Shown: one piece after another, positions 203 to 12,600 of the stretch
How positions within the stretch are numbered: position 1 is the stretch's first letter
Layout: every line of letters begins with the position of its first letter
Source of the DNA: Xestospongia bergquistia
Taxonomy: Eukaryota > Porifera > Demospongiae > Haplosclerida > Petrosiidae
Assembly (NCBI GenBank): GCA_963965975.1
Contig: OZ014422.1
Span: 3,123,155 to 3,187,154 of the forward strand
DNA: 64,000 bases
Direction of reading: 5' to 3'
Translations under genes and position numbers: made by a program
Notes under the pieces: generated by a model
The model's input: only the letters and a program-made list of their open reading frames with translations
What the model was told of the DNA's origin: nothing
The model's database searches: none

Positions 203-266
203 CATTAAAACCTATAGTATTGACCATTTCTAATTGTCCTGGAGTGTTTTCTTGTTCTTCGGCCAT
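203..266 (-). CDS. CFAP52: CFAP52 (WDR16)-like gene, first coding exon only
   Basis: This is the first coding exon of a gene read leftwards out of the window. It has 21 codons plus one base, from an ATG at 266 to a GTAAG donor just below 203. The peptide begins MAEEQENTPGQLEMV and ends TIGFNG. The end matches the conserved start of the cilia- and flagella-associated WD40 protein CFAP52/WDR16, whose N-terminus has an 'IGFNG' motif before the first WD repeat. In other animals the family sits in the lumen of motile-cilium doublet microtubules. The intron runs to the window edge, where a TATAG acceptor is visible at about bases 3-7, so the next exon probably starts at base 1-2. Identity rests on a short peptide, but the X-box about 43 bases upstream of the ATG, typical of ciliary genes, supports it independently. 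Confidence 0.6.
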
Positions 267-308
267 TCTAGTACTCTCTCTTTTTAAAACTATTGTTGAT
301 CAGACTTC

Positions 309-322
309 GTTGCTATGGTAAC
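309..322. promoter_or_regulatory. RFX X-box in a bidirectional promoter
   Basis: The 14-base palindrome GTTGCTATGGTAAC is a full X-box, the binding site of RFX transcription factors (consensus GTTRCC-AT-GGYAAC with small variation). It lies in the 70-base gap between the divergent CFAP52-like ATG (266) and the Ulp1-protease ATG (337). RFX factors drive ciliary genes in animals. Confidence 0.75.
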
Positions 323-336
323 TCTCCGCCCAACTT

Positions 337-3218
337 ATGGCTCGAGTTACTGTCAATGTATGTTACCGTACGAAATTATTTAAGGTAACTACTTCTCCTG
401 ACTGTTATGATATTATTTATATATTATCTGCTTTTCAGGTTTCTTGTTGTCCTCAAGAAACTATTGGTGACATTCTCCATAAAGTGAATGCTGATTCCTT
501 GTAAGCAATTAAATTTTGTTGTATTTCTCATGCCCACACAAATACTAGATAGTACAATGAAACTGATGAATGGAAAGTTAATATACAATTACATGAGCAA
601 AAGTTTTAATACAGAATGAACTGTTTTACCATAGATATTAGAGTACTCTGGTATTATAACTGTTCAGCTAGGTAATTGATAGACAGTCATTCTACCAGTG
701 GTAAGCTCGTGTGAATTTTATTTAAAATGTGACATCATCAGTGGTAACTTTTGTCAGAAAATACAGTAATGTGGAAATATAAACTCTAGCATGTTTTTGT
801 GCCCTCTTTGGATATTTTAAATTGTTCTTTCTTCTATGAAAGTATCATTTTATTTTAAGTAAATTTGAACAAAGTAGTTGTTATTTTTTATCTGCTATGT
901 CTCGTTTACCTTGTGTTGAGAGAATCATATTTATTGAGTTTCAATGTCATTGTTTTGTCAGAAGTAAAGTGTATTCAGGTAATAGCAGTAAACCAAGTAA
1001 CAATCATATTTTCATTAGACTACTATTCTATGTATTTTCTTTTGAAAGTGACAGCTTTTCTCTTGTTTTGTCTCATGACTACTGGCCATGATTGAGAGGA
1101 TTTTTCATGATAGTGCTTGTTTTAAGTTTTATAAGACCAGTAATTAGTTGTTTATACACAAATATATGCAAATGGCATATAATATATATATATATATATA
1201 TAGTAATACATGTATAATTTTGAAGTGTAAGCAAGAATAACTTGAAATTTTGGATAAAGTAAGCCCCATCAATTACAACCTAATATCTATAGCTTCTTTG
1301 GAATATGATGGTCTGAAAAGGAAACTTATCAGATATTAAAACTGTCATGAAAACTGCTCATGTCTGGAAATTCTATTATCCAACTGCAGCCAAATATACA
1401 GTGAATATAATTAATATAATTAAGATGATATTAAGATATTTAAAAATTTACGATGTAGAGGAACAAACAAAAGTAAAGTTACAGTCCTGGAAAAATGTTA
1501 TGAATAACTTCATAAAGCAGCCTGGCCTTTTATGCCTTAAAATAAATTTGTATGGAGGAAATAACTTCTGGATCCTCTGGTTACATGACCATAGAGCCCA
1601 GTAATGGATGTGATATCTATGGGAAGTTATTATTTACATGCTAGACCCTAAACCCAAAAAGTATGATATTCCATACCAGCTCTCACGTTGTCAATTAATT
1701 AATAAAAGATTACAAATTTCAATGATAAAGATCTGTTTTTAATTCAATAAAGATACATTTTGCAATCTTTATGAATTTTGCTGAAGGCAATACTTGTAGC
1801 TAGTAAAACACACACAAGAGATATCATTGAAATTCGTAATCTTTTATTAATTAATTAATAACATGAGAGCTGGTATGGAATATCATATGTCTTGTGTGTG
1901 TTTTACTAGCTACAAGTATTGCCTTCAGCAAAATTCATAAAGATTGCAAAATGTACCTTATTGAGTTAAAGCAAATCTTTTTCATTTTATAGGACTGATA
2001 TTGTATTACTTGTACCTTTAATGTTTTTATGGGGAGGGATATCTTCACAGCAATTTGAATTGGTGCCTTTTCATTGTACTGTTCATACTCTACTTTTACA
2101 AGTGAACTTATCACACATTCTTGTACTTCTGTCATCAAACAATCCTTACTCAAATCAATTTGAACTATTTGGTAACAAAAGTGAAACATTGTCTACACAT
2201 ACAGAGAAGGAGAAAAATTGTGACTTAAAAAGTAATAATGACACTGTTATCATTCTTTCTGACTCTGAAGATGTTATAACATCTGATACTGTGGCATGTT
2301 GTGGTATTAAACTCTCTCACTTGGACATATCTAGTCTTTATCCTTTACAATGGCTTAATGACCAGGTATAGTTGTAATTGACTCAGCAGTCCTTTGTGTC
2401 TTTAATAGGTGATAAATGCTTACATGAATCTTCTCATGTTGTATCACAAGGTATGTCGTCATACTAATTCATCATTACTTCTTTATATGTCAAGGATATT
2501 CATATTGTTAGTACGTTCTTTTACACAAAACTAGCACAAACTGGTAGTCAAGGAGTGACCAAATGGCTAAAGAAAGTAATAGATAAATTGTAATAAGGTG
2601 TTTTACTTCCATTTTGTAGGTCAATGTCTTCAGTTTATCAAAGATATTAATTCCAGTTCACTTGCCAGGTCATTGGAGCTTAGCTGTGATAGATATAAAG
2701 TGTCAGGTAGTTTAGTCTGTATTGAGTGGCTCCAATGTATTGTTCAAACTATAGAAAGTTGAATATTATGACTCATTAGGAATTCATAATAGAAAATGTT
2801 TAAAAGTATGGCACGAATAACAACCATTAACGGTTATATTTGTCATAGAAACTACTGATGTTAGTCTTTAAATTAGCCCACAAGATGAAGAGAAGGTTAA
2901 AACCACACTGGAAGACAACCCACCCAAAAGTGAAGCAAAGATCATGCATACAAACACACACACATACTTACAATAAATCTTTAGAATATACCAAAACAAG
3001 ACAATACAAGTGACTGTGGTGTATTTATATGCCAGGTATTTGATAATTAGATTTATACATTTGTAATTTGTCATTTCTTGTAGTATGCTCGATGGTTATG
3101 TAACTCAGATCTTGTCACTTCATGGACTAATAATGATCCGTTTTCATCAAAAGACATAGTGAAGTTGAGATATCACATGATCCAAGAAATTACACAAAAT
3201 CAACTACTGCCATTATAA
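337..3218 (+). CDS. SUMO/ubiquitin-like protease (Ulp1/SENP family) with ubiquitin-like N-terminus
   Basis: Exons read with consistent phase: 337-384, 439-500, 1993-2365, 2409-2450, 2495-2575, 2620-2706, 2755-2805, 2985-3035 and 3084-3218. The C-terminal part is a C48 cysteine protease. It shows 'LYPLQWLNDQ', 'STFFYTKL', the catalytic His in 'GHWSLAVID', the catalytic Asp in 'VEYYDSLG', the oxyanion Gln and catalytic Cys in 'PKQDNTSDCGVF', and the final helix ending 'ITQNQLLPL'. One short exon between 2805 and 2985, the helix between Asp and Gln, was not placed. The first two exons (MARVTVNVCYRTKLFK, then VSCCPQETIGDIL) look like the opening hairpin and helix of a ubiquitin fold. The family cleaves SUMO precursors or deconjugates SUMO; the exact substrate cannot be read here. 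Intron 2 (501-1992) holds a large inverted-repeat structure. A serine/acid stretch 'IILSDSED' in exon 3 resembles a SUMO-interacting motif. Confidence 0.8.
1661..1967. repeat. Two interlocked inverted repeats in SENP intron 2
   Basis: Bases 1741-1818 are nearly the exact reverse complement of 1891-1967 (about 77 bases). Bases 1661-1733 are nearly the reverse complement of 1818-1888 (about 70 bases). The arms are therefore in the order B', A, B, A'. This looks like a rearranged or duplicated foldback (MITE-type) element. No coding sequence is seen in it. Confidence 0.8.
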
Positions 3219-9692: not shown

Positions 9693-12600
9693 CTAGTGAT
9701 ATTTCCATCCATGAAAACAACGTGTGAACTCCCAAGGTTCTTGACCTCTTATAGCAACTTTGAATTTCCTTTTTGATTCTTCTTCTTCTTCAGCAACAGA
9801 TTTAATGTATAGCTAAATTTGTTGTGAACAGACACAAAACAGAATTAACCTAACAATTTACCTGAGCACTTTTCATCGCTAATTTCTTTTCTATGTCACT
9901 ACAACTTGATCCAAACCAAATGTAGACCTGCATATTTAATAATTACAACAAATGGAAGGGACAACAACAATATACCTCATTGCCATTATCAAGTATCATG
10001 ACATCCTCGTCAGAGAGATCTCCCTAAAGATTATAGTATACATCAAGTTACTATAATGAAGATATATATATAGTACTTGACAAAAATCTGGAGTTTTCTC
10101 TGAAACTGAGAAATAGCCTTTTTCATTGGAACATCGAAAAAGTCGTTTAAATTTCATGTACTCAGCCTCCTGTGAAATTTGTAGTATATATTTCACAAAC
10201 CAATCTACTAACCCTATCATAATCACCACGTCCACCTAAAGCCACCCAGAAAAAATTTTCAGGTTCTGCACCTTCTTTTACCACAACATTGGAATAGCTT
10301 GACTAGATAACAACATCTTTTATTATTTCATACTTATTAATTACCTCAAAGATAGTTCTTCCCATTTGTTCTGCATGTATAGCTTCTTCTGTTCTAGTTT
10401 TGCTAAAGAAAGCCAAAAGTGAAGAAAATATAACTAAGATAGTACCTGCCAATCCAAATATATACAATACCAGATCCAGGGGAGTTTTCAAATGGTACTT
10501 TTAATATGAAACTATCAAATTAACAACAAAACAATGTACAGTATACAGTTTGTTTACCAACCAGAAGCACGAGTTGAGGTATTTGGGTTCAGCTGTCACC
10601 TAGATCAAAGTTAAAAAAATTACAAAATTATTTGTCATGAGATGCAAACTTGTGTGTCTGTTAATAAACTATGTACAATTATGGATAATTATGTCACTGT
10701 GCTTTCTGCTAATAAGAACTATTAATACATGTATTTAATTAAATGGTTGGATATAGCTAGCATGGTGTAGCTGACCATTCCCATTTCCCAAGAGACAAGG
10801 GGTGGGGCAATAGATCAACTTGTCTCTGATATTTAGATATTTGCACCAAAGCTATGTTAGGTACCACTACTGTATAGCTGGTTTATTCATGGACATAAAA
10901 AATGGTCACTAAAGTTTATGTGAGAGTTAATTTTCATGTTTGCTTCCATTCCTCCATGTTTAATTATTACAAAGATTGTGCATTGGAGGGTTGACAAAAT
11001 GACATCACAACAAACGTATCAGTTATATGGTATAAAAATTTGTGTGAAAGGTAACATAAACTGTGATGACATGGCAACACCTGATTAAGGTGCAAATATC
11101 TGGATGTTGGACTAAACCCTTCCATCTCAGAGAGTGAGAATAGTTGGTTATGACAGACTAGGACACAGTTAACAAACTAATACACTAACATACTTTAATC
11201 TATCTTTGTTTGTCTATTTTATTGTCATGTATACACATTTTATCTACTCAGGTAGTGGACGGTGGTCTATTGAAGATTAGACAACACAAACTAATAAATT
11301 TTTAAAATGGCATCAATGAATGTGAAGCAGGCATGGGGTCAAATACATTGAATAGTATTTAAATACAAATACAAATACTCTCAAAATATGAAATACAAAC
11401 TACAAATACAAATACTTCTAGCAGGAATGTATTTCAAATACAAATCAAATACTTTGAAAAATTAATATTTAAATACTTTTCAAATACTGCTTTGTACTAT
11501 CCAGAACACCCCCATTATTTGCTTTTACATGTAATCAACTAATCATTACAAATTATTCATTGCATCTAATAAACACAAGTTCTTCAAATATTTTGTCACA
11601 GATAGTGTACTTGTTGGTACTAATAGGTATTAATAGATCTTACACATAATCTTGCAGAAGAAACAAACAATTTAAAAAGGAGTATTTGAAAATTTCATGA
11701 AGTATTTGAGATACAAATACAAATACTTCCTGTTTCAAAAATTCAAAATACAAATACAAGTACAAATACTCCAAAAAGTACTTAAATACAGCTAAATACA
11801 AATACTAATGTGTTTGACCCCAAGCCTGATGTGGAGTAACACAAGTCACAAAACAAATATACTTGAACAAGGTAACCTATTCTATAACTCTACCAAAATA
11901 CCCAAAATGTCTAACATTTCAAATTAAATACTAAATATCATGAGAAACAGGATTTGGCAAATTTTAATTCTAAATGGCAAATTAAAATTACACATTCAAA
12001 AATTCTTTTATTTCACACGTTTATCCTTGCTGTACATTAAAAGAATGTACAAAACATATATTGTCTAAGCATGTAGATCAAGTTTACCTGGATCACTCTT
12101 CTAGACAGACGACTATTATTAGCTCTGATTTGGTAGAGAGCTGGTTTATTAGCATTGAGTTGACTTTGTCGTTTACCCTAATGGGATAAGATTAAAAATG
12201 TCATTATTACAACATCACCAACCCAGTGTATTATAACTTTCCCTCCGAAATGAGCCAGGAATTGAAAGCTTTCTTGTTGCTATACAATCATATAATAATA
12301 AATATTAATCATAAATTGTATTGTACTTGTTTCAAACGTATGACTTCAATAGCTCCCATAGCTTTTTCAAGTTGTTTTCGAATCCTAAAACATATTAATC
12401 AGTACTGTGTCATGTCAAGGAAATTTTAGCATTAATTTTAGGGCTTTGCTAATGTCGTTCTTTTTGATCTATAGATTTTCAACTTTGTTAATTGTTTGAT
12501 TATGATGATGCTAAGTAGAATGCAGCCATTTACCTGTTTATCTCGGAGCAAAATTAAGTATTGTCAACCACCAAATCTTACTCTGTATATCTCAGAAACT

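Follow-up and report, generated by a model that had tools for sequence, protein, structure and literature searches.

The X-box of bilaterian ciliary genes is bound by RFX factors, and a sequence of this form lies at positions 309–322 of the window, the whole stretch of 64,000 nucleotides analyzed here (C12:3123155–3187154, in an assembly of 146.46 Mb and 21 contigs). The question raised by the locus is whether this site is a promoter element of the ciliary gene to its left, of the divergent gene to its right, or of neither. Our reading, which we hold with a probability of roughly 0.82 on the basis of the sequence comparisons described below, is that 309–322 would be a working RFX promoter element, of a kind shared by most of the ciliary genes tested.

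The X-box observation itself was confirmed. The sequence GTTGCTATGGTAAC fits the X-box consensus GTTRCYATGGYAAC exactly, and the minus strand, GTTACC-AT-AGCAAC, reads as two inverted half-sites that fit GTNRCC N0-3 RGYAAC, the X-box consensus quoted in the accessible portion of the paper by Coyle et al. (2023; PMC10530576). The first-pass annotation had described a perfect X-box palindrome. The exact consensus match stands, but the inverted repeat is imperfect, with mismatches at 2 of the 7 base pairs. When GTTGCYATGGTAAC was searched with up to two mismatches, 309–322 was the sole match in the window. At least one match at this tolerance was found in 55 of 100 shuffles of the window (mean 0.74), so the tolerant count is uninformative and it is the exactness of 309–322 that counts. 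With GTTRCYATGGYAAC, one additional site with two mismatches was found in the window, at 11065. The features around the site are as follows.

203..266, minus strand: coding part of CFAP52 exon 1, from the ATG to the splice donor (MAEEQENTPGQLEMVNTIGFNG...), taken from the joined gene model.
267..336: interval of 70 bases between both ATGs, probable bidirectional promoter/5' UTR.
309..322: X-box, putative RFX dimer site by consensus match (GTTGCTATGGTAAC on the plus strand, GTTACCATAGCAAC on the minus strand).
337..384, plus strand: exon 1 of the right-hand gene (MARVTVNVCYRTKLFK), from its reading frame and GT...AG borders.
385–438: intron of the right-hand gene, 54 bases, with GT...AG borders.
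439..500, plus strand: probable second exon of the right-hand gene, assigned by its frame and splice signals.
2409..2450, plus strand: probable exon of the Ulp1/SENP-type gene (VINAYMNLLMLYHK), in the joined query, outside the matched residues 31–72.
2620..2706, plus strand: exon of the Ulp1/SENP catalytic domain (VNVFSLSKILIPVHLPGHWSLAVIDIKCQ), with the Peptidase_C48 match (residues 31–72 of the joined query).
2755..2805, plus strand: next exon of the Ulp1/SENP catalytic domain (KVEYYDSLGIHNRKCLK), borders set by eye.

The site lies 42 bases from the ATG of CFAP52 (position 266, minus strand) and 14 bases from that of the right-hand gene (position 337, plus strand), in agreement with the distance of about 43 bases and the 70-base interval reported by the first-pass annotation, and it could lie within a 5' UTR. 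The remainder of the CFAP52 gene extends beyond the left edge of the window (locus L025), and a model of 592 residues was obtained by joining frames from about 20 kb to the left. This leftward extension yielded WD40 exons, as proposed earlier for a CFAP52/WDR16-like gene, and the joined model matched the CFAP52 chains in the PDB with an E value of 2.5e-206. The alignment covers residues 12–462 and 493–617 of 7ung_e (620 aa), and about 30 residues between both stretches are absent from the joined model. Judged by this match, the left-hand gene is genuine CFAP52.

A Pfam search with exons 1 and 2 of the right-hand gene gave no match. The joined right-hand exons matched Peptidase_C48 (Ulp1/SENP) with an E value of 5.8e-12 over residues 31–72, and the gene is probably of the Ulp1/SENP type. 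The divergent SUMO-protease gene claimed previously is thereby recovered as far as the Peptidase_C48 exons are concerned, while we infer that these exons are part of the gene with its ATG at 337. At about 1680–1980 of the window, probably in an intron of the SENP-type gene, there is also an inverted repeat, long and imperfect, that is MITE-like by eye.

The scan of other ciliary promoters suggested by the first-pass annotation was performed on 13 regions, each upstream of the first matched exon, which were chosen from Pfam matches before the DNA was read. The Pfam families, which we take to be ciliary, comprised CFAP20, a CFAP20-domain relative, three tektins, two TPH genes, a DRC1-type and a DRC2-type gene, two EFHC-type genes (with three DM10-like repeats each), an RSPH4/6 radial-spoke protein, and IFT46; the names of all 13 genes rest on domain matches. 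The RSPH4/6 and IFT46 regions were added once the first eleven had been read, and weak extra Pfam places were left out (one in the CFAP20 search, one tektin, one radial-spoke, and two C-terminal IFT46 places). Altogether, the regions (L052–L062, L071, and L072) make up 9923 bases, with 601–921 bases each.

An X-box within one mismatch of GTTRCYATGGYAAC was found in 9 of the 13 ciliary regions, at a threshold that was settled after the first results; the count of exact sites is independent of the threshold and stands at 4 of 13 (the CFAP20 relative, DRC2, EFHC-b, and RSPH4/6). The other five regions, those of CFAP20, tektin B, TPH1, DRC1, and EFHC-a, have the site with one mismatch. All nine X-boxes end 24–83 bases before the ATG, a range that includes the 42 bases of CFAP52, and the 14-mer of RSPH4/6 is identical to that of CFAP52, in the opposite orientation relative to the gene. 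No 14-mer X-box with one mismatch or fewer was detected in the regions of tektin A, tektin C, IFT46, and TPH2 (4 of 13). The region fetched for TPH2 resembles internal exons, so that its promoter was missed, and tektin A has two X-boxes of different spacing, farther upstream. The pattern GTNRCY N0-3 RGYAAC, slightly looser than the published one, was present exactly in 7 of the 13 ciliary regions and in none of eight proteasome regions, and one other site was found in 84 kb.

The background density of the motif was low. Besides the CFAP52 site itself, one site within one mismatch was found in 84 kb (the window plus about 20 kb to its left), and four were found in 154 kb around sampled places of C1, from which 150 bases on each side of the chosen site were excluded. 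This gives a total background of 5 sites in 238 kb, 154 kb of which are flanks of sites selected for the motif, or about 0.02 per kb, and 0.21 sites would be expected in the 9.9 kb of ciliary regions. The Poisson probability of nine or more sites there is 1.7e-12, and dinucleotide shuffling produced no site in 60 of 60 rounds. Proteasome genes were used as a control, taking the 8 of 13 gene places where the Pfam match started within the first 8 positions of the family. No site within three mismatches was found in any of these eight 5' regions. The contrast between 9 of 13 ciliary and 0 of 8 proteasome regions has a Fisher P of 0.0046, the proteasome regions being shorter (401 bases each, vs. 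601–921) and having a start codon that is clear by eye in about four of the eight. Because of the shorter regions and the few clear start codons, this comparison is weaker than that of densities. The results support a strong enrichment of X-boxes just upstream of the ATGs of ciliary genes in this genome. Two findings could have spoken against the first-pass annotation, a left-hand gene other than CFAP52 and a lack of enrichment at ciliary promoters; both were looked for and neither was obtained.

Several of the ciliary genes are arranged head-to-head with other frames. Opposite tektin A lies a frame starting with a GIY-YIG domain (E value 1.5e-9), opposite DRC1 a frame starting with a TAF domain (4.2e-6), and opposite DRC2 a frame with a Rossmann-type match (best E value 8.6e-4, below the curated cut-off); these loci are L054, L059, and L060, respectively. 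Candidate divergent frames were also seen opposite the CFAP20 relative and EFHC-a, and those opposite CFAP20, tektin B, and EFHC-b gave no convincing match in Pfam. The arrangement of CFAP52 is therefore not unusual in this genome. With divergent frames opposite several ciliary genes, bidirectionality could be the common factor, and the X-box would then be a general core-promoter or bidirectional-promoter element instead of a ciliary one. We consider this unlikely, as the eight proteasome regions, short and with about four clear start codons, were all without a site, and EFHC-b has an exact X-box although its sole candidate divergent frame within 420 bases is 328 bases off.

The same arrangement bears on which gene of the pair is served. 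The X-box is nearer to the ATG of the right-hand SENP-type gene than to that of CFAP52 (14 vs. 42 bases), as would be expected if it chiefly served the former and CFAP52 were a passenger. However, nine other ciliary-family genes carry the X-box and the CFAP52 distance falls inside their range, which makes a passenger role very improbable. Since some other ciliary promoters are also head-to-head, it is plausible that the element is shared but that the response is on one side.

Throughout the genome, GTTRCYATGGYAAC gave 1403 exact strand-hits (708 + 695), vs. 6 (2 + 4) for the reversed pattern, perfectly palindromic copies being counted twice in these totals. Such a number would agree with an over-represented genomic sequence, spread in repeats and the flanks of gene families, that came to lie at CFAP52 by accident, as would the copies beside a PR-domain zinc-finger array, beside collagen-like genes, and in a frame that is transposase-like by eye. 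Many X-box copies in the part of C1 examined do lie in repeats and gene-family flanks. Loci L004–L010 (C1, about 1.666–1.747 Mb) have flanks in common, as judged from an alignment of 24 loci with 329 rows, of which the first 80 were covered, and L012, L013, and L016 have flanks in common with L038. L004, L007, and L010 appear to be copies of a PR/SET-domain gene with C2H2 zinc-finger repeats of 28 residues, in which GTTACTATGGTAAC lies about 90–200 bases beyond the finger frame; the PR part of L004 matched PRDM2_PR in Pfam (E value 2.5e-29), and its best solved structure was PRDM9 (1.8e-25). As the motif is common for several reasons, an exact copy alone proves little. An accidental copy at CFAP52 is nevertheless very unlikely in view of the nine sites in 9.9 kb of ciliary regions, against a background of about 0.02 per kb, and of their tight position before the ciliary ATGs.

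In the reverse direction, the surroundings of exact sites were inspected at 20 places of C1 (L032–L051, 4 kb on each side). These were drawn, among the matches listed, from 100 strand-hits, all on C1, and apparently clustered sites were left out, with L038, L050, and L051 still having flanks in common with other fetched loci. Most neighboring genes were assessed by eye, using open frames with a minimum of 90 aa, with Pfam searches on nine frames and a few further checks. Only two possible ciliary genes were recognized around the 20 places, many neighbors being unassigned. At L036:3995–4026, an exact X-box precedes by about 17 bases the ATG of a possible further ciliary gene, whose DUF4639 match was weak and did not reach the cut-off. 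At L041:3993–4006, an exact X-box lies within an open frame, by eye that of a divergent tubulin gene; a nearby GTPase-domain exon matched Tubulin in Pfam (E value 2.5e-22), and this tubulin-type gene could be ciliary. Because so few ciliary neighbors were recognized, the exact copies sampled on C1 mostly do not resemble ciliary promoter elements, and the motif by itself marks ciliary promoters poorly. None of the 13 ciliary genes is on C1, and the sample is thus not representative of the genome.

Some additional features were seen at the C1 loci. By eye, L012, L013, L016, L038, and L049–L051 encode a family of short collagen-like proteins, whose cysteine-rich end is conserved. L051 gave a Collagen match in Pfam that was below the cut-off (E value 3.2e-5), and L050 and L051, about 100 kb apart, have long stretches in common. 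Within about 350 bases at L048:3778–4123, there are four X-box-like sites, of which two are exact, one has a single mismatch, and one has two.

The reading of 309–322 as an RFX promoter element involves a factor able to bind it, and the RFX DNA-binding family (PF02257) gave five exon matches at three places in the genome. The exon on C5 (L027, 69 aa) matched the DNA-binding domain of human RFX1 with an E value of 2e-29 and that of RFX5 with 1.1e-7; by this similarity, it is an exon encoding an RFX1-type DNA-binding domain, and the assignment to the RFX1/2/3 type comes from a comparison covering the DNA-binding exon. The matches L028 and L029 (C1, about 15.107 and 15.119 Mb, some 12 kb apart) are, as we take them by eye, RFX4/6-like. 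In the mechanism that we propose, the RFX1/2/3-type factor whose DNA-binding exon is on C5 would bind both half-sites as a dimer, with the CFAP52 start codon about 40 bases downstream. Its binding would raise the transcription of CFAP52, presumably in ciliated cells, and the same element in a similar position would serve dynein-regulatory, radial-spoke, tektin, CFAP20, and EFHC-type genes.

The first-pass annotation had further suggested that such a site would put this wiring at the base of animals. That claim has largely been anticipated by published work, in which ciliary genes of choanoflagellates are under RFX control. According to the accessible portion of the paper by Coyle et al. (2023; PMC10530576), ciliogenesis in these organisms is controlled by an RFX factor, an RFX mutant has a ciliogenesis defect, and the RFX motif occurs in 21.9% of the conserved-ciliome promoters vs. 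2.0% of all promoters. The RFX-ciliary wiring seems to predate animals, and the earlier RFX-ciliary interpretation of the site is, as a whole, partly supported. Neither RFX, X-box, nor cilia is mentioned in the main text, as far as accessible, of the Amphimedon promoter paper (PMC4773876), nor is RFX in the accessible main texts of an Amphimedon histone paper and of a chromatin study from 2025 with a sponge among its species. RFX and ciliary genes, including DAF-19 and dRFX, are discussed by Chu et al. (2010; PMC2873420), and the accessible text makes no mention of sponges. A literature search, partial in the texts it covered, returned no paper describing X-boxes in the promoters of sponge ciliary genes. 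Work by Piasecki and colleagues from 2010 may bear on this subject.

The point of interest that is left is the high frequency of full X-boxes in this genome. A guess about a single site has become a pattern within a genome, with canonical dimeric X-boxes at 9 of 13 ciliary 5' ends. The organism is likely to be a sponge: its genome size, the 21 contigs, the short introns, the head-to-head genes, and the short collagen-like proteins agree with a demosponge, although no single one of them is proof. If the organism is a sponge, the gap between choanoflagellates and bilaterians would be filled and the timing of the step from half-site to full X-box would become testable. In that case, we put forward, tentatively and with more doubt than conviction, that a full X-box 24–83 bases before the start codon may have been the default ciliary switch in the last common ancestor of sponges and other animals, that the change from a half-site to a dimer site may mark the animal stem, and that, in head-to-head promoters, a single X-box may act on a ciliary gene and a non-ciliary one at the same time.

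Compared with the bilaterian X-box, the predicted sites described here are alike in being inverted repeats of two RFX half-sites near the start of ciliary genes, and unlike in lying partly in head-to-head promoters. Their position is also different, since the X-box of Caenorhabditis elegans is placed 100–250 bp upstream of the coding sequence in the accessible text of Chu et al. (PMC2873420), and the sites found here end 24–83 bases before the ATG. With Amphimedon, as described in the accessible part of PMC4773876, this genome has in common that it is a compact animal genome with many head-to-head promoters. With choanoflagellates, as far as the accessible portion of PMC10530576 goes, it shares RFX sites near the starts of ciliary genes and the presence of an RFX factor; the choanoflagellate motif, however, resembles a single half-site, whereas the X-boxes found here, in a much smaller set of genes, are complete and have two half-sites.
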